Shown here: positions 1,728 through 9,921 of the stretch, piece by piece
Layout: each line of letters begins with the position of its first letter
How positions within the stretch are numbered: the first letter of the stretch is position 1
Source: Gammaproteobacteria bacterium
GTDB taxonomy: Bacteria; Pseudomonadota; Gammaproteobacteria; Pseudomonadales; Azotimanducaceae
Direction of reading: 5' to 3'
Assembly (NCBI GenBank): GCA_026707945.1
Contig: JAPOVV010000038.1
Span: forward strand, 124,001-188,000
Length of the DNA stretch: 64,000 bases
The notes under the pieces: model-generated
The model's database searches: none
Told to the model about the DNA's origin: nothing
Seen by the model: the letters and a program-made list of their open reading frames with translations, nothing else
Translations under genes and position numbers: made by a program

Positions 1728-2402
1728 ATGAAAATCTGGTTGATCGTATGTGTCTTCGTCGCGTTATTAGCGGGCGCGGCGCTTGCCATTCGGTTCTGGA
1801 CAACAGGCGATTTCAATGTCGCGCATTCGCTACTTATTTTGTTTCTAACGGTGAATATCTTGGTGTCCTATTGGGAAATTTGCCTGTTCTTGCGGATTTC
1901 CGAGATCGAAGAGAAAAGGAAAAGTTGGGACTCCGTGAGATCGGAATCAGGTGCGGTTCCAGCGCTCAAGTTTCTGACGATGTCGGTTCCGCTTCGAAAA
2001 GTCTTTGCTCCAAGCGTTTGGGCGGAACTATGGGGCGTTTATTCTCTGTACGATGCGTCCTATGCAGATCGAAAGACTTTCGGCTTTAACTGTGACGTAG
2101 CCAATGGAGTGGTTACGCCGCTACTCTCCTTGCTATTACTCGGTACGTTCACGATCCCATTTCTGCCCGCGCGCGTGGCGGGAATCCTCGGTGTCCTACT
2201 CTTCTGGCAATGGATTTACGTGACGTCCGCCTACATCATGAGTTTCTTTATGGCGGGTCGCCATCGATTGATTAATCGCAAAGAAATTCTGATATATATC
2301 TGGGGACCGAATCTGTTTTGGATCGTGTTGCCGATATTCGGTTTCTATGTCTCTGTCCGATTGGTTCTCGAAGGGAGCTATGTAGCGCTAGGCTTGAATT
2401 GA
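1728..2402 (+). CDS. EXPERA-domain membrane protein, emopamil-binding-protein (sterol isomerase)-like
   Basis: This 224-residue protein has about five hydrophobic segments (near residues 4-22, 34-56, 125-147, 150-170 and 188-212). Residues 101-123 align without gaps to the signature of eukaryotic emopamil-binding protein: LW..Y...D..Y.....F....D, where human EBP has LW..Y...D..Y.....F....E. The last helix has N195, W198 and VLP, matching the human N-x-x-W-x-VLP segment that holds active-site residues N193 and W196. The human His76 has no clear equivalent, and Glu122 is replaced by Asp123. EBP moves the sterol double bond from C8 to C7; the same fold also occurs in TMEM97 and other EXPERA proteins, so the reaction here is inferred. 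Start ATG 1728 has only a weak ribosome site. The next genes encode a sterol desaturase-family enzyme and an NSDHL-like dehydrogenase, which supports a sterol or steroid role. Confidence 0.65.
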   Translation: MKIWLIVCVFVALLAGAALAIRFWTTGDFNVAHSLLILFLTVNILVSYWEICLFLRISEIEEKRKSWDSVRSESGAVPALKFLTMSVPLRKVFAPSVWAELWGVYSLYDASYADRKTFGFNCDVANGVVTPLLSLLLLGTFTIPFLPARVAGILGVLLFWQWIYVTSAYIMSFFMAGRHRLINRKEILIYIWGPNLFWIVLPIFGFYVSVRLVLEGSYVALGLN

Positions 2403-2504
2403 GGCTCGAAAGCGCCTATTGAAATTCATGACGTGGTTCATTAAGACCGATCTACAATGAGTTAGAGCAAGCGTCAACGCGTCGTCGGGAACAGTAGGAA
2501 TCCC

Positions 2505-3170
2505 ATGAATCTAGCTGTAGGACTCGCCGGTGTCGGCGTGGCGGTCGCAATATATGGAAGCGTTGCGACATGGTCATCGGCTTCGGCTCAATTTCGGCAT
2601 CTTCGGATCCGAACGGTAACCCAACCAATCCCGAGAAAATACGTGTCGATCACGTTGAATAGCACGTTCGCCGCGACGCTATACGTAGTTGCCGTGCTAA
2701 TTGGCGAAGGCGTCCTGTACCAACAAGAAGTAAATCACAGCGTTCTACGCGTTCTAGTGGATTCGCTGCTCGTGCTGCTGGTTTATGACTTTCTTTATTA
2801 CTTCTTTCACCGTTGGCTACACACACATACGATGATGCGTCACGTCCATGGCGTGCATCATCGCGTGCAATTCCCAGAAGCTATGGACGGACTCTTCATA
2901 CATCCGGCAGAAACCACTGGGGGTTTAGCATTGCTGTTCGCCGCGATGGCGGTCGTCGGCCCCATCAGCGTGGCGTCGTTCCTCATCGTCGCGTTCGTAC
3001 ATGCGGTTGCAAATATTGCCACGCACACGAATTTAGTCGTACCACATCCGGCGTTCGCACTGTTCAACTACTGGGCTGTACGTCACGATTTCCATCACAG
3101 CACCCACCGTAACTCAAACTACGCTTCGATCTTCCCGGTTTGGGATCGCATGTTTGGGACATACCGATAG
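2505..3170 (+). CDS. Sterol desaturase / fatty acid hydroxylase family membrane di-iron enzyme
   Basis: The 221-residue protein has hydrophobic segments near residues 1-22, 52-72, 84-101 and 143-172 and the three histidine clusters of the fatty acid hydroxylase superfamily: H102-x3-H106, H115-G-V-H118-H119 and H194-D-F-H197-H198. These bind two irons. Members use O2 to hydroxylate or desaturate lipids, including sterol C5-desaturase (ERG3), sterol C4-methyl oxidase (ERG25) and cholesterol 25-hydroxylase; sequence alone does not tell which. The protein ends soon after WDRMFGTY, as in many bacterial members. ATG 2505 follows AGGA at a suitable distance. It lies 102 bp after the EXPERA gene and just upstream of, or slightly overlapping, the NSDHL-like gene, so the three genes probably form one transcription unit. 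Confidence 0.88.
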   Translation: MNLAVGLAGVGVAVAIYGSVATWSSASAQFRHLRIRTVTQPIPRKYVSITLNSTFAATLYVVAVLIGEGVLYQQEVNHSVLRVLVDSLLVLLVYDFLYYFFHRWLHTHTMMRHVHGVHHRVQFPEAMDGLFIHPAETTGGLALLFAAMAVVGPISVASFLIVAFVHAVANIATHTNLVVPHPAFALFNYWAVRHDFHHSTHRNSNYASIFPVWDRMFGTYR

Positions 3171-3184
3171 GTCACTCGGGATCC

Positions 3185-4195
3185 TTGGGCACCGTCTTGG
3201 TCACTGGTGGAAGCGGCTTTATTGGTTCAACGATTGCGTCAGCATATGCACGGACAGGCCGACCGGTTCGCGTTATTGATAAACAGCGCGGTCCGTTGCG
3301 TGAAGGAATAAGTTTTGAAAAGCTCGACCTCACTAACTACCCAGCAGTTGAACATGCGTGTCGTGAGGTGGAAACGGTCATTCACTGCGCGTCTTTGGTA
3401 CAGACCCGCAACAACGCACGAGACGCGGTGTGGGCGACGAACTTTGGCGGTACGCAAAACGTCATCGCGGCTTGTCGAGAGCAGGATGTCGCGCGTCTTA
3501 TCTACGTCAGTTCGGCGAGCGTGGTTTACGACGGTAGAGACGTTGAAGACGGTGATGAGAGTCTTCCATATGCCACGGCAGCTCCGAGTGTATACGTCGA
3601 AAGCAAGATCGCGGCGGAGAAGGCGGTGTTGGACTTTGCAGCCGAGGGTACAACGCGTGCTTGTGCGTTACGTCCGCATTTGGTGTTTGGTCCGGGCGAC
3701 AACCGACTGATTCCAAACTTTCTCGCTCGACGAGGCCGTATGCGTGAAATCGGGAACCGCAGTCATTTGTCGGATTTCCTGTATATCGACAACTTCGTCG
3801 ATGCTGTGCAAGCGGCCGATGCTCGGATGGCGGATGATTCCGCGATTTCTGGCGAAGCCTTTTTCATCACGAATGGTGAACCGCTTGCGTTTTTTGAGTT
3901 TGTCGAGCGGGTATTAGCAGCGATTGATCATCCTGCGATCCTGGGTCGTGTCCCGTCTTGGGTTGCATACTTAGCCGCTACGATCGTCGAGTTCTACTAC
4001 CAATTGATGTCACGCGAGATCATTCCAGAGGATGGCGTGTCGCGCTTTGCAATACGCTACCTGACGACGCACCATTACTTTTGTAGTAAGAAAGCTCAAA
4101 AAATGCTCAATTGGAGGCCGCGCATACCGATCGACGTCGGTATTGAGCGGACCGCTGAGTATCTTCGGACCTCACAGGTTGGGAATCCAAGCTAG
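3185..4195 (+). CDS. 3-beta-hydroxysteroid dehydrogenase / NSDHL-like NAD(P)-dependent dehydrogenase
   Basis: This is an extended short-chain dehydrogenase of about 336 residues. The N-terminus is the nucleotide-binding loop VLVTGGSGFIGS, and the catalytic pair is Y137-x3-K141 in SVYVESK. The second half carries features of the sterol-4-alpha-carboxylate 3-dehydrogenase (ERG26/NSDHL) and 3-beta-HSD families: FGPGDNRLIPNFL, a SDFLYIDNFVDAV segment, GEAFFITNGEP, and a late THHYFCSKKAQKMLNW block. NSDHL oxidises the 3-hydroxyl during C4-demethylation of sterols. I chose TTG 3185, which places the glycine loop two residues after the start, as is usual; TTG 3140 in the same frame would add 15 residues and overlap the upstream gene by 31 bp. 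Close spacing suggests co-transcription with the EXPERA and desaturase genes. Family assignment is firm; the steroid substrate is inferred. Confidence 0.85.
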   Translation: MGTVLVTGGSGFIGSTIASAYARTGRPVRVIDKQRGPLREGISFEKLDLTNYPAVEHACREVETVIHCASLVQTRNNARDAVWATNFGGTQNVIAACREQDVARLIYVSSASVVYDGRDVEDGDESLPYATAAPSVYVESKIAAEKAVLDFAAEGTTRACALRPHLVFGPGDNRLIPNFLARRGRMREIGNRSHLSDFLYIDNFVDAVQAADARMADDSAISGEAFFITNGEPLAFFEFVERVLAAIDHPAILGRVPSWVAYLAATIVEFYYQLMSREIIPEDGVSRFAIRYLTTHHYFCSKKAQKMLNWRPRIPIDVGIERTAEYLRTSQVGNPS

Positions 4196-4425: not shown

Positions 4426-6018
4426 ATGGGCGACATGCGAGTGCGAAAAGTACTTAAGACCTTATTGGTTTGGTTCTTTGCGATTGCCACGGTAGGTACG
4501 GGCATGGCTAACGAAGGCGAGTTATTCGATATACACGAGATCAACTCGGGCGAAGCTGTGCATCAGACCGTCTTGACGGGTTCGTTTACCGACGCTTCGC
4601 ACATCGAACTCGCCATCTTGAGCACTGACAAAGAAGGGAATTCTCATGTTGAGGTTTTTCGCTTGGAAGGTGATCGATGGACGGAAGTTCAAAACTGGCC
4701 ACTTGACCAAGGTGTTTTGTTTGTCGACCGAATGAAGTTGGCAGGTCGCGACCACTTGCTTACGTACCGGATTGGGGGCTTTAGTCGGTTTGATTTAGCG
4801 ACCGGTAATGAAGAGAACCTCATTGAACTAAACGCTGGCTTTCGAAGAGCGGGGGATGGGAGCATCCCTCGTCTCAACGTGGTCCGCGATCTGAATGGGG
4901 ATGGTCGAGACGATGTCATCATGCCAGATACTGATGGATTCTGGATATCCTCGCAATTGCCCGATGGGACGTATTCGGACCCGACCAAGATCGGTCCCCC
5001 TGAGCCGCACGTTGACGCTAACGCATATGGCGATGAGTTAACCTACGGTGAGGTCGGGATCGACGCCCAGACATTACCCTGGTACCTAAGTCGCATACAT
5101 CAATTTGACTACGATCTAGACGATCAGCCTGATCTGGCATTTTGGAACGACACTCATTTCGAGGTCTATCGCCAGGATGAGTCAGGTGGCTTCGCTCAGG
5201 TACCAGACTCTTTTTCAGTAGATGTCCCCTTCGATTTCGATGGATCGTACGCACTTGCGTTTCAGTTTAGTGATAGAAGTGTCGCTTCCCTGCTGCTCGG
5301 ACTAGGCGGTCGCTTCGAATACACGATCTTGCAGGGATTTCCGGACTTGAATGGAGACGGAATTGCGGATCTCGTCACCTTAACCTTCTCAGGACGCAGG
5401 GTGTTCAGCCTTCGTGGACGCTACGATGTCCATTTCGGACGCGCGACAGCACAAGGAATTCGGTTTTCGCACCTGCCAGACACATCGGCAAGGACACCAG
5501 GTCCTGCAGGGGGTAGCGCATGGGGTTACGCGTCGCAGCGCTACATGGATGTTGACGGCGACGGCATGAAAGATCTAACTATGGCGTCGGTCAACACAGG
5601 GCTTGGTGGTATGGCTCGAGCGATGGTAGGCAATTCCATTTCCATGAATCTCGCTGTGTACCGTCTAGAAAATGGTGCTTATCCCGCACGACCGGACGTC
5701 AGGCGAAAGGTACGACCACCATTTGCGCCGTTTGACAAGCGAGGCGTGCTCTTTCCGACCGTACTATCAGGCGACGTGAACGGCGACGGGCGGATGGATT
5801 TACTAGCCGTTGAACGATGGGATGAACTGTCGGTTTTCCTTGGCGTGGACAGTTCGCAACTGTTGTCGGATCAGCCTATCAATGTCGATGTTGAAGCACC
5901 CGTTGATGAGCGCTTCGCTAGTGTGCGTGATTTGGACGACGATGGCAAAGATGATGTTGTGATCCACTATCCATCGAAAACAGAATCAAATCGTATTGTC
6001 GTGCTGAAAGGGCGATGA
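4426..6018 (+). CDS. Exported FG-GAP/VCBS-repeat protein
   Basis: The 530-residue product has a signal peptide (positive start, hydrophobic core near residues 10-24, likely cleavage around GMANE). The rest holds at least six acidic calcium-loop motifs typical of FG-GAP/VCBS repeats: DLNGDGRDD, DYDLDDQPD, DLNGDGIAD, DVDGDGMKD, DVNGDGRMD and DLDDDGKDD. Such repeats build a calcium-bound beta-propeller. No catalytic motif, membrane anchor or sorting signal is visible, so it is probably a secreted or periplasmic propeller of unknown ligand. ATG 4426 is used; ATG 4435 is a close alternative. It stands alone between the sterol-like trio and the ABC-2 fusion gene. Confidence 0.8.
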   Translation: MGDMRVRKVLKTLLVWFFAIATVGTGMANEGELFDIHEINSGEAVHQTVLTGSFTDASHIELAILSTDKEGNSHVEVFRLEGDRWTEVQNWPLDQGVLFVDRMKLAGRDHLLTYRIGGFSRFDLATGNEENLIELNAGFRRAGDGSIPRLNVVRDLNGDGRDDVIMPDTDGFWISSQLPDGTYSDPTKIGPPEPHVDANAYGDELTYGEVGIDAQTLPWYLSRIHQFDYDLDDQPDLAFWNDTHFEVYRQDESGGFAQVPDSFSVDVPFDFDGSYALAFQFSDRSVASLLLGLGGRFEYTILQGFPDLNGDGIADLVTLTFSGRRVFSLRGRYDVHFGRATAQGIRFSHLPDTSARTPGPAGGSAWGYASQRYMDVDGDGMKDLTMASVNTGLGGMARAMVGNSISMNLAVYRLENGAYPARPDVRRKVRPPFAPFDKRGVLFPTVLSGDVNGDGRMDLLAVERWDELSVFLGVDSSQLLSDQPINVDVEAPVDERFASVRDLDDDGKDDVVIHYPSKTESNRIVVLKGR

Positions 6019-6204: not shown

Positions 6205-9200
6205 ATGAAATTCATCGATTCGACTAGAGCTCATCTTGTCGTAGTTTGGACCTTAGCGTTCGAGGAGATCCGTTTCGATCTCCGTCTGACGCGCACTTGG
6301 TTCGTTGTCGCGTTCGCCCTCTTAGTAGGTGTGACCAACACCATCGAGCAGGTAAACGTGTATTCGCAACTCTCGGCGGTTGGTTCTGGAACCTTCATGC
6401 ACTCGCCGTTGTTGTCGCCGACCACGATCTTTCCCGACTTTCAGATCGTTATCACCTTTGGGCTCGTGTTCTTTGGCATCGAGATTGTTTCGCGCGATCG
6501 GATTGCCCGAATGGATGAAGTGATCGGTGCGATACCCATAAGTAACAGCCAAATCGTGTTCGGGCGTGCGCTTGGGTTATCTACGCTGTTTTTCCTGTTG
6601 TTCGCAGCGTTCATGTGCGTGTATGTCGTGGTCGCTGTCTTGTGCGAGCGTGCGTTTCCAAACTTGGGATTTGGCTCACCGGAGCCGTACAGCATGCTCG
6701 CGACTCTCGTCACTGACGCTTTGCCCTATTTGTTCTTTTGGATCGCCACAGTGATGTTTCTTACGGTCCTGGTCCGGTTTCGCGTGTTGGCGGCCGTTCT
6801 CGCGATTGGGTTGATGCTATTGATGTACTGGTTACAGAACAATGCGCCAATGTACTTACTCGATGTGCTAGGAACCTATAGCCTCAGTACTCAGTTGTCG
6901 TCCGAGCTTGCACCGAATTTCACATCGAGTGCTATCGTCTCCCAGCGACTCGCACTCATTCTGTTAGCGATTGCTTTACTGTATTGGACGGCATACCTGC
7001 TTCCACGCCTAAATACTGTCCGTACCCGAAAGCCTGTTGCGCTCGCTGCGTCAATAACGGTAGTAGCGGGAATCGGATTTAGCATCGTCCACGCACAAAC
7101 CTCCTCACGTCTAGATCAGTTCGCAGGTTGGCGGGATCACCACGCAAAGTACGACAGCACCTCACAGATTGATATTCAGCGTCTCACTGGACAGATCGAG
7201 CTCGACCCCGGCGGCGCTATAACGATTGATCTCGTGGTCGACTTCGTACTGGTTCAGCAATTACACCAAGACGACTCATTGGTGTTCTCTCTCAATCCTG
7301 GATACGAAATCGAGCACCTCGCACTTGGCAACCATCAAGCAGCCTTTTCGTTCGAAAGCGGTCTTTTAAGGGTGGTAACTCCCCGAAATCTAGAGCGTAA
7401 CGCGGGGTCGCGTTTGCGGATCAAGGCACATGGTCCTCCTGACTCGAGTTTTGCCTATTTAGACGCCGCGATCGATCCTATGACTAGTGATGCAGTAAGC
7501 GCTTACGGACTATTCCTACTGGGATCGGACGCGGCGATTAACCGAACGGACTATGTGGCACTTACCTCGGCAATCGCGTGGTATCCCATGGCCGGTCCGC
7601 ACCTTGACCGGGACGCCATCAGCCTTCGACCACGCGATTACTTTGATGTAAATCTTGAGGTACTAACGCCGATCGAGTGGCATGTCGGTGGACCAGGGAA
7701 ATCTGGGATTGAGGTAGGCTCCGATCGTAGGGTGCATACGTTCACACCGTCGATTCCTATCCATGAAATCGGATTGTTTGCAGCTCAGTTCGAGCGGAGA
7801 GCAAAGTCGATAGCAGGTATCAACTTCGAACTATTGGTGTCGCCCAAACACACTCAAAATCTCGAGATATTCAAGGCTATTCTCGACGACATCGAAGCGG
7901 AAATCGAGGAACGAATTGCGTTCGCTCTCAGCCGAGGATTCGAATTCCCATTCAAGACCTATACGATCGTTGAAACGCCGATATACCTGCGAACATATGG
8001 TGGTGGCTGGCAGATGCCTTCCACGCAGTCTATACCCGGGGTATTTCTCCTACGAGAGGGTATGTTCCTATCAGCGAACTTTCAATCAATCGCCGATTCG
8101 GTCCATCGAGACGCTGACTTGACGGATGAAGAAAAGCGCCAACGATTGCTAGCGTATCTGACTGGATATTTCGGAAACGATGTAATCGGTGGTGATGTTT
8201 CAAAGGCGTTTGTCGATAACTTTGTGCGCTTTCGCGCGGAACCCACGGGACCTCGCGCCGAATGGTTCGGATTCTTAATCGAGTACTTAGCGTCCGAAGT
8301 CATTTCTCAGTCGTCGGGGTTTTACTCAGTACAAAACCTGAAGACGGTAGGAACATGGTCAACAGCCCGTTTAGCTTCGTTTGAACTCGATGCGGAACGC
8401 ACCGGAAATACTTTGAACCGGCTCTACTTTAATCGATATATCGAACGACCGGAGGTCTGGGAGTTGATGCTTGAGGGGTCATCCAAGGAGCCATCAACAT
8501 TGCAAACCCCGCGAAATCAACTCCACGCAGGTTACCTCTATAGCAAGACCATGGGAGAGCTCATATTAGATTGGTTCGGTCCTGAAGAAGTAGGGACGCT
8601 ATTGAGGACGCTTGTAGACCGGTACAAGGGCACCGCTTTCACCTACGATGACTTCAACGTGGTTGCGTCAGAGCTAGGTATGTCGTTACGAGATAGATTT
8701 GGTGATTGGCTACACGATATCCGACCCGCAGGCTTTGTTGCGAGTGCGTTCACGACGGAGCGTTTGCCGGATGACAGCAACGGATCGCCCGTCTTCGAAC
8801 ATACCTTTCATGTGCAGAATCGAGAAGAAAGAGCGGGATTGTTCCGTGTTTCGTATCAATTCGCAGGTGCGGGAGATCTGCCGATCTATTTGACCCGATC
8901 TACAGAACCCATGGCGCTTGAAGGCGATAGCTCCGCGGTAGTTTCAATTCAAGTTGATGCACCTATTCGGGTGATGAAAGTAATCCCGTACTTCAGTTTG
9001 AACCGATATAGTTTCGACGTTCATTCCGTTGGCGGTCAAGATATCCCCGCCGTGTCGCGTGATCCCGCTCCTTTGATCCAGCCTTCTGATTGGCAATTGG
9101 CAATCGGCGACGGAATTTACATCGATGATCTCGACCCAGGGTTCATGGTCGATCCGCCTAACATCGGCGCGAAACCACGATTTTCCGTTCGAATGATCTC

Positions 9201-9714
9201 ATTAAATCAGCCTGATCCAGAACTCGTAAGTACAGACCAAGGACTTCGGTTGTACAGTATTTACTCGAATAGAAGCGAAACCGGATGGACGCGTCAGCAA
9301 GTCGATACCTCATTCGGGTTGTACCGGCGAACGCTCGCTCGAGCCGAGCATGAGTCGACGTCGCAGAGAGCTCATTTCCGTGCCTATCTTCCGCACGCTG
9401 GATCATGGAATCTGCATTACCATCTTCCAGACATCGCGGATGTCAGATATAACCTTTTTGATACCCGTGGGCGAGATGGATTGACTAGCAGCGGACGTGT
9501 CAAGAGACCAGATCTAGATATTTCAGTTGCTCAAGTGGGACGTGTTCGATCGGTTGTATCGCCCGGCGATGATTTGGTCACCGGCTGGAATCCTATTGGT
9601 ACTTTTGAACTAGAAACTGGCGAAGTGAAGGTTAGCATTTCAACAGAAACTACGGTTGGGACCGTCATCGCGGATGCGATTTTCTGGGAACGAGCCAGTT
9701 CATCGGAACGCTAG
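6205..9714 (+). CDS. ABC-2 permease fused to M1-like aminopeptidase fold, zinc site absent
   Basis: The 1169-residue protein begins with about 300 residues holding roughly seven hydrophobic segments, including an ABC-2 type permease pattern (FGIEIVSRDRIARMDEVIGA, then a helix-rich part). After the last helix near residue 295 comes a long soluble part whose order matches the known ABC-2 permease/M1 aminopeptidase fusions: beta-rich N-domain, then VETPIYLRTYGGGWQ near residues 590-604, then an alpha-helical domain. I find no HEXXH zinc motif anywhere: HE occurs only in IHEIGL and EHEST. The peptidase part is therefore probably inactive. No ABC ATPase gene is adjacent, so the partner ATPase would have to be encoded elsewhere. 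No function can be assigned beyond membrane transport or export linked to a peptidase-like domain. Confidence 0.72.
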   Translation: MKFIDSTRAHLVVVWTLAFEEIRFDLRLTRTWFVVAFALLVGVTNTIEQVNVYSQLSAVGSGTFMHSPLLSPTTIFPDFQIVITFGLVFFGIEIVSRDRIARMDEVIGAIPISNSQIVFGRALGLSTLFFLLFAAFMCVYVVVAVLCERAFPNLGFGSPEPYSMLATLVTDALPYLFFWIATVMFLTVLVRFRVLAAVLAIGLMLLMYWLQNNAPMYLLDVLGTYSLSTQLSSELAPNFTSSAIVSQRLALILLAIALLYWTAYLLPRLNTVRTRKPVALAASITVVAGIGFSIVHAQTSSRLDQFAGWRDHHAKYDSTSQIDIQRLTGQIELDPGGAITIDLVVDFVLVQQLHQDDSLVFSLNPGYEIEHLALGNHQAAFSFESGLLRVVTPRNLERNAGSRLRIKAHGPPDSSFAYLDAAIDPMTSDAVSAYGLFLLGSDAAINRTDYVALTSAIAWYPMAGPHLDRDAISLRPRDYFDVNLEVLTPIEWHVGGPGKSGIEVGSDRRVHTFTPSIPIHEIGLFAAQFERRAKSIAGINFELLVSPKHTQNLEIFKAILDDIEAEIEERIAFALSRGFEFPFKTYTIVETPIYLRTYGGGWQMPSTQSIPGVFLLREGMFLSANFQSIADSVHRDADLTDEEKRQRLLAYLTGYFGNDVIGGDVSKAFVDNFVRFRAEPTGPRAEWFGFLIEYLASEVISQSSGFYSVQNLKTVGTWSTARLASFELDAERTGNTLNRLYFNRYIERPEVWELMLEGSSKEPSTLQTPRNQLHAGYLYSKTMGELILDWFGPEEVGTLLRTLVDRYKGTAFTYDDFNVVASELGMSLRDRFGDWLHDIRPAGFVASAFTTERLPDDSNGSPVFEHTFHVQNREERAGLFRVSYQFAGAGDLPIYLTRSTEPMALEGDSSAVVSIQVDAPIRVMKVIPYFSLNRYSFDVHSVGGQDIPAVSRDPAPLIQPSDWQLAIGDGIYIDDLDPGFMVDPPNIGAKPRFSVRMISLNQPDPELVSTDQGLRLYSIYSNRSETGWTRQQVDTSFGLYRRTLARAEHESTSQRAHFRAYLPHAGSWNLHYHLPDIADVRYNLFDTRGRDGLTSSGRVKRPDLDISVAQVGRVRSVVSPGDDLVTGWNPIGTFELETGEVKVSISTETTVGTVIADAIFWERASSSER

Positions 9715-9921
9715 CTTTAATCCTCGTACTTAATTTTGGTCACATAAATCCAAATTGGCCTATAGGTTTAAGTCCATTGCTCGAATTCGATAGAGTGTCT
9801 GGCTTTATCCGTCTTTATGAATTACATCGTAATTTCTCTGCGAGAAAAGCATCGAAGTTGCTAGACTAAATTCTCTGAATGATTTTCATTACACGTATGA
9901 GAATGAGGTTTGCCGAGAAGA

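Follow-up and report, generated by a model that had tools for sequence, protein, structure and literature searches.

Bacterial sterol clusters, fusions of squalene monooxygenase (SMO) with oxidosqualene cyclase (OSC), and bacterial C-8 isomerases are already known and are not new here. SdmA, SdmB, and SdmC as bacterial C-4 demethylation proteins are the subject of PMC10202945, whose text also names a homolog for C-8 isomerization in Calothrix; EBP and ERG25–27 homologs are named in Nannocystis pusilla (PMC10152446), and a C-8 isomerase is mentioned in Methylotuvimicrobium (PMC13277303). Steroid gene clusters were reported in 115 of 537 Ircinia metagenome-assembled genomes from 10 phyla, with ERG2 in several (PMC9531527), and sponge symbionts were reported to have sterol methyltransferases (SMTs), fused SMO/OSC homologs, and sterol clusters that include sdmA and sdmB (PMC10070321). 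Here, we describe 3 plus-strand genes, designated g1, g2, and g3, in a stretch of 64,000 nucleotides (the window; positions 124001–188000 of contig C114) of a gammaproteobacterial genome (G000, 3.8 Mb in 117 contigs). We put at roughly 60% the probability that the trio forms a cassette for tailoring the sterol nucleus in a bacterium making sterols de novo; that is to say, the 3 genes probably finish a home-made bacterial sterol.

Comparison with the closest described systems revealed that (i) g1 resembles human EBP (3-beta-hydroxysteroid delta8,delta7-isomerase; PDB 6oht and 8w0r; PMC6549186) in its predicted fold, in the W-Y-D-Y/F-acid and N..W spacing, and in an acidic residue like E80, but shares 15% identity with it in structural alignment and lacks a Pfam match and equivalents of His76 and Arg110, and would be a very distant cousin; (ii) g3 resembles human NSDHL/yeast ERG26, human NSDHL being its best PDB sequence match (E = 1.8e-39), but is bacterial and lies beside a short FA_hydroxylase; (iii) the g2–g3 pair shares its proposed chemistry with SdmA/SdmB (PMC10202945), homologs of which lie in the core sterol cluster of the same genome, but g2 is predicted to be a di-iron and not a Rieske protein, and g3 reaches 45.7 bits against the SdmB profile (NF052578), far under its 600-bit cut-off; and (iv) the sterol genes of this genome resemble the sponge-symbiont clusters (PMC9531527 and PMC10070321), some of which include ERG2, in the ERG24-CYP51-OSC order, in an SMT or squalene synthase gene on the opposite strand, and in the SMO/OSC fusion, whereas the trio lies outside the core cluster. 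The isomerases of Nannocystis, Calothrix, and Methylotuvimicrobium, named by homology, belong to the step proposed for g1. The text of PMC9531527 makes no mention of EBP and that of PMC10070321 none of EBP or isomerase, and we found neither the EBP family of g1 nor the 5-gene run described below in searches of the open-licence literature (supplements excluded throughout).

The cassette and the sterol genes of its genome

Open reading frames (ORFs) for all 3 genes were confirmed on the plus strand, together occupying 2.5 kb (Table 1), as the initial annotation had proposed. The start of g3 is uncertain, being either the TTG at 3140, which overlaps g2, or an alternative TTG at 3185. Against the trio-bearing relatives (loci L050 and L051; for g1 also L052), nonsynonymous divergence (dN) was 0.16–0.22 and synonymous divergence (dS) 1.5–2.3, giving a dN/dS of about 0.1 for each gene with dS near saturation. 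Because dN is low relative to dS, g1, g2, and g3 are real, maintained genes under purifying selection and not chance frames. Promoter and terminator scans of the cassette gave nothing better than chance.

By gene content, the genome is that of a sterol producer, carrying squalene epoxidase (SE) and OSC. A core cluster on contig C31 (L032) comprises, in a row, genes for an SdmB-like protein (293.6 bits), an SdmA-like protein (401.7 bits; both under 600-bit cut-offs), an ERG4_ERG24 reductase, a P450, and an SE-OSC fusion. The fusion is a single frame of 1131 residues (L032:13614–17009), in which an SE domain (78.5 bits, cut-off 20.1) is followed by an OSC domain with the motif WPVSDCTAE (TIGR03463, 701 bits, under the cut-off of 851). 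Convergent with it are a g1 paralog (45%) and a gene resembling squalene synthase (108.6 bits, cut-off 286.75). On C114 lies a second cyclase, unfused and 649 residues long, which has the same motif (L036:7298–9247; TIGR03463, 677 bits, again under 851) and is 53% identical to the fused one; both carry DCTAE, the oxidosqualene-type motif. An SE-OSC fusion of about 1130 residues is present in this genome, in 13 of 13 fetched OSC regions (L185–L197), and in the flanks of 11 of 80 loci with g1 relatives. Some 4 kb upstream of g1 is an ERG6-type SMT gene (Sterol_MT_C, 6.1e-20). These core genes, together with the recurrent linkage described below, support the sterol-modification role that the initial annotation had suggested for the trio, which appears largely right.

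Within the genus, g1, g2, and g3 occur together in 2 of 17 other genomes examined. This genome and its 2 trio-bearing relatives carry a strong OSC (split over contig ends in G017). The fetched core regions of G000, G010, and G016 contain no SMT, which is found instead at the window-type locus; in G007 and G015, EBP and SMT genes adjoin the core, in G006 an EBP gene does so, and in G003 EBP, squalene synthase, and SMT genes share one short contig with OSC on another. G010, G016, and G017 carry EBP copies of the window type and C8 type only, which leaves the window-type copy as the best candidate for their isomerase. The contigs that hold the core and the trio in G016 are 836 kb and 1.4 Mb long, respectively, and a binning error is therefore unlikely there. 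Some findings speak against the proposed role: g2 and g3 are present in only 2 of the 17 other same-genus genomes, the SdmA/SdmB-like genes of the core already supply a C-4 route, and the EBP copy of G012 lies away from the core. We infer that the genome belongs to a sponge symbiont; the record titles of relatives (COS, RHO, SB06xx, Ca. Palauibacter rhopaloidicola) fit sponge hosts named in PMC8163846.

Alternatively, the trio might modify or degrade sterols taken from the host or the water, not a home-made one, a reading that we consider unlikely here and yet the strongest of the alternatives. Of 390 genomes sampled from the order, 18 besides this one have an ortholog of g3 (43%–48%), and in none of the 18 did an OSC match exceed 56 bits. 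The presence of the g2–g3 family in these genomes suggests that imported sterols are also among its substrates. In family f29, a P450 homolog lies near g2–g3 or g3 in 10 of 11 genomes, and at L175, the one f29 locus checked for this feature, the P450 is fused to a ferredoxin domain. Since bacterial C-14 demethylases fused or next to ferredoxin are reported in both sterol producers and sterol degraders (PMC13277303), a sterol context for g2–g3 is likely in other g3-bearing genomes too. Uptake is opposed here by the strong OSC of this genome and its 2 trio-bearing relatives and by the SMT and EBP genes, which adjoin the core in G007 and G015 and sit at the window-type locus in this subgroup. Of the substrates first considered (a bacterial sterol, a hopanoid-like lipid, or an imported steroid), a de novo sterol is likely here, imported sterols are suggested for the wider family, and the hopanoid is not supported.

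Beside the P450-ferredoxin fusion lies a conserved protein of 235 residues (L175:16179–16886) with homologs in 8 of 11 f29 loci. It was suspected to be the 8,14-sterol reductase of PMC13277303, gained no support from Pfam, NCBIfam, and PDB searches, and is left unnamed.

Table 1. Position and putative function of the 3 cassette genes in the window.
Gene	Assignment	Position	Strand	Length	Evidence
g1	EXPERA/EBP-fold membrane protein, putative sterol delta8-delta7 isomerase	1728..2402	+	224 aa	AlphaFold2 model, Foldseek, residue spacing
g2	Di-iron FA_hydroxylase family membrane protein, putative C-4 methylsterol hydroxylase	2505..3170	+	221 aa	PF04116 E=3.2e-24, His motifs
g3	NSDHL/3-beta-HSD-like short-chain dehydrogenase/reductase, putative sterol-4-carboxylate 3-dehydrogenase (decarboxylating)	3140..4195	+	<=351 aa	PF01073 E=2.5e-50

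Predicted fold of g1 and spread of its family

The AlphaFold2 model of g1, built from 48 aligned homologs, has a predicted local distance difference test (pLDDT) score of 94.2 and a predicted template modelling (pTM) score of 0.89. Among the best 50 of 184 Foldseek matches in the PDB, the human EBP structures 8w0r (E = 5.2e-3) and 6oht (E = 0.097; template modelling (TM) scores 0.58/0.63) were the only ones with a probability of 1.00, the next-best probability being 0.60 at E = 0.55. The g1 paralog in the core cluster reaches the EXPERA/EBP profile PF05241 weakly (18.3 bits, cut-off 25.7), as does 1 of 8 further g1 relatives (11.5 bits). The EBP/EXPERA-like character given to g1 by the initial annotation was therefore borne out by fold and not by profile.

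Eleven residues important in human EBP are listed in PMC4263179; His76 is the proposed proton donor, and Glu80, Glu122, Asn193, and Trp196 lie in the cavity (PMC6549186). Matching by the published spacing, with Glu80 placed on g1 E50 by helix position, revealed that g1 retains EBP W101, Y104, D108, Y111 (as Y or F), N193, and W196, as well as E80, whereas Glu122 is replaced by Asp and Thr125 by Asn. In alignment A2, all 48 sequences share E50, W102, Y105, D109, D123, N126, and W198, and 46 have N195; in alignment A1, to which the C8-type paralogs are added, 14 of 16 sequences retain E50 and W102. Of 72 g1-family ORFs, which are mutually related and not independent, 69 contain the pattern W..Y...D..[YF].{10}[DE], against 0 of 1439 other ORFs examined. 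The EBP/EXPERA assignment is based on the predicted structure, the conserved residue spacing, and the weak PF05241 match of the paralog. By its model, g1 has the EBP fold but falls beyond the boundary of the Pfam family; it is most likely a sterol delta8-delta7 isomerase.

Against this assignment stand (i) the absence of any Pfam or NCBIfam profile match for g1 up to E = 1, PF05241 included; (ii) TM scores against the EBP structures of just 0.53–0.63, with no match below E = 0.001 among the best 50 of 184; (iii) V, I, or A at the His76 position in all aligned g1 homologs, a match that rests on the E50 placement; and (iv) S or A at the Arg110 position in the same homologs. PDB sequence searches with g1 and with its 48-row profile also gave nothing meaningful. 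The absent His76 is the chief point against a standard EBP mechanism, and it fits a protein of the EXPERA fold that binds or transports sterols and does not isomerize them, as do the many g1-family genes with no sterol gene in the fetched flank and the many such genomes without a strong OSC. Such a role is nevertheless improbable given that g1 retains the N193-W196 pair and acidic residues at the sites corresponding to E80 and E122, and that in one sterol cluster ERG2 is next to the OSC fusion and an EBP-like gene is absent.

A third g1 paralog on contig C8 (L034:9791–10462) lies 34 bases upstream of a Steroid_dh gene (8992–9756; PF02544, 5-alpha-reductase family, 145 bits), and the pair is conserved in G010 (L048:9782–11253). 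In the 2 aligned copies of these C8-type paralogs, E50 is replaced by Gln and W102 by Tyr.

A g1 match at E ≤ 1e-3 is present in 19 of 97 genomes (this one included) and is strong in 18. An OSC above 500 bits is present in 11 of the 97, each of which also belongs to the 18 strong g1 cases; the association (Fisher, 3e-10 over 97 genomes and 0.011 within the genus of 18) is uncorrected for kinship. A scan of genome contigs with 16 g1 homologs yielded 110 relatives among the candidate stretches, of which 80 were kept. These numbers, and the homologs named in the texts of PMC10152446, PMC10202945, and PMC13277303, overturn the earlier view that EBP-like isomerases are unusual in bacteria. A tree of 59 rows, which leaves out 6 redundant A2 loci and a duplicate row for the window, covers 8 phyla and contains supported cross-phylum groupings, such as that of Acidobacteriota with a gammaproteobacterial row (100/97), which suggest horizontal transfer of the g1 family.

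Clustering of the ORFs at the 80 loci (with L067 and L080 counted as of unknown phylum) gave 31 clusters that span at least 2 phyla and 11 that span at least 3. The latter comprise g1, an antisense frame over g1, and 9 neighbour families, 7 of which are sterol-type: ERG24-like, SMT, SE-OSC, P450, SdmA-like, SdmB-like, and a second Rieske family. In the annotation of the flanks, SdmB/g3-type matches under 80 bits are not shown, and the picking of ORFs lost some g1 homologs under longer antisense ORFs, with 55 of 80 loci showing g1 in the cluster count. The statement that only sterol genes recur across phyla beside g1 was rejected when a recount by phylum found 2 non-sterol families.

The breadth of the proposed role is limited by these 2 non-sterol families among the 9, by a sterol linkage that comes almost solely from Pseudomonadota, Nitrospirota, and Binatota, and by the distribution of cyclases. 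Of the 69 loci whose flanks lack an OSC fusion, 50 were checked genome-wide; an OSC above 460 bits was found elsewhere in 12 genomes and none above 290 bits in 38, some of which have weaker cyclases of 190–290 bits; these 38 genomes count also in favour of imported sterols. L045 (G060) and L046 (G029) have EBP-like, P450, and ERG24-like genes side by side, with no OSC match in either genome; they are perhaps users of outside lanosterol, or incomplete genomes.

A search for ERG2 in the genomes of a different 50 of the 80 loci found it in one (G120), so the method is able to detect it; an earlier ERG2 search of the genome of the window gave no match, and its controls were equally silent. In G120, the ERG2-type gene (L185, about 5405–5972) lies between SMT and the SE-OSC fusion without an EBP-like neighbour, and an EBP-like gene (L080) lies elsewhere in the genome, as if ERG2 were an alternative to EBP in this cluster.

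The g2–g3 pair and its probable role in C-4 demethylation

The protein g3 matches PF01073 (3Beta_HSD) at 171.5 bits against a cut-off of 22. Its NSDHL match (PDB 6jkg) has 139 bits over 225 residues, the next solved structure following at E = 2.4e-15 and 60 bits. With this profile and with NSDHL nearest among solved structures, g3 is classed by sequence as an NSDHL/ERG26-type protein, in line with the initial annotation. The family given there for g2 also stood: g2 matches PF04116 (FA_hydroxylase) at 86.3 bits against a cut-off of 31, and its histidine motifs HRxxH, HGxHH, and HxxHH are invariant, with H102, H106, H115, H118, H119, H194, H197, and H198 unchanged in 17 aligned rows (one gene entered twice). 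Thus, g2 is a member of the di-iron FA_hydroxylase family.

The placement of the pair is weakened by several results. Sequence and profile searches of the PDB found no solved relative of g2, and its structure model, built from 3 sequences, has a pLDDT of just 37 and gives no subfamily placement. For g3, OleD is the best NCBIfam name, at a score under the cut-off of that profile.

Gene context favours C-4 oxidation for g2 over C5 desaturation, between which the initial annotation had not chosen. In 17 of 19 loci with a g3 ortholog outside the genus (the second copy in G263 counted), g2 is directly upstream of g3; of the 2 exceptions, one is a contig end and the other a lone g3 copy. An aldehyde dehydrogenase (ALDH) gene lies upstream in 17 of 17 g2–g3 loci, with a gene between in one, and a GMC oxidoreductase gene lies near in 14 of the 17 fetched larger loci. 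In G179 and G286, close relatives from one other family, EBP-like, GMC, ALDH, g2, and g3 genes follow one another in a single run on one strand, no more than about 120 bases apart, which extends the co-occurrence of the trio beyond the genus.

If g2 were instead a C5(6)-desaturase like ERG3, the trio would make delta5,7 sterols and g3 would be a separate 3-beta-HSD. ERG3 is likewise a member of the FA_hydroxylase family, and its usual substrate is the product of EBP. A search of this genome with g2 found only g2 itself, no other search for a C5-desaturase having been made. However, the context of g2 with g3, ALDH, and GMC fits methyl-group oxidation, and a conserved C-terminal NYAS..F..WD..FGT-like stretch of g2 resembles ERG25. 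The desaturase role is thus quite improbable, and g2–g3 is most likely a eukaryote-like C-4 demethylation pair. That the trio serves a non-sterol lipid such as an olefin or hopanoid is very improbable: the nearest NCBIfam names of g3 are OleD and HpnA, but g3 reaches only 206.6 and 220.4 bits against the OleD profiles (NF042422 and NF042423, cut-off 580), NSDHL is nearest in the PDB by a wide margin, no ole or hpn set was seen by eye in 19 kb of L035 (no dedicated search was made), and both cyclases carry the oxidosqualene-type DCTAE motif.

We infer the substrates, reaction order, and products of the trio as follows. Like EBP, g1 would shift to delta7 the delta8 double bond that remains after C-14 demethylation and reduction. 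A sterol C-4 methyl group, probably the one left by SdmA/SdmB, would be hydroxylated by g2 and taken on to the carboxylate either by g2, in the manner of ERG25, or by other oxidases, whereupon g3 would oxidize the 3-beta-hydroxyl and decarboxylate, as NSDHL/ERG26 does. In the relatives with the longer runs, C-4 demethylation would proceed from methyl to alcohol (g2), aldehyde (GMC), and acid (ALDH), followed by decarboxylation (g3).

Taken jointly, the data tentatively suggest, with somewhat less than even confidence, that an unrecognised sterol isomerase of the EXPERA fold, active without the canonical histidine, has spread by horizontal transfer among bacteria of at least 8 phyla, most of them probably sponge symbionts. 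In one lineage of Gammaproteobacteria, this isomerase would be joined to a second, eukaryote-like bacterial C-4 demethylation route composed of a di-iron hydroxylase and a decarboxylase resembling NSDHL, to which relatives add separate oxidases for the alcohol and the aldehyde, and the symbionts would thereby make fully 4-demethylated, 24-alkylated delta7 sterols. If true, these are sterols of a kind that, when found in rocks, is taken as a marker of eukaryotes or sponges; bacterial sterol pathways matter both for sterane biomarkers and for the question of how eukaryotic sterols arose. A divergent EBP family missed by Pfam would account for the delta8-to-delta7 step and for the failure of annotation to notice it, and g2–g3 would be a bacterial C-4 route beside SdmAB. 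The reading predicts that genomes with g2–g3 make 4-desmethyl sterols and that sister genomes without the pair may stop at 4-methyl sterols.

Upstream of the window, a Rieske oxygenase gene (L035:9566–10642, contig C114) lies beside the SMT gene, and its product is weakly SdmA-like (49.7 bits). A 51% identical Rieske copy lies between 2 SMT genes in a Binatota sterol cluster (L064:7472-).

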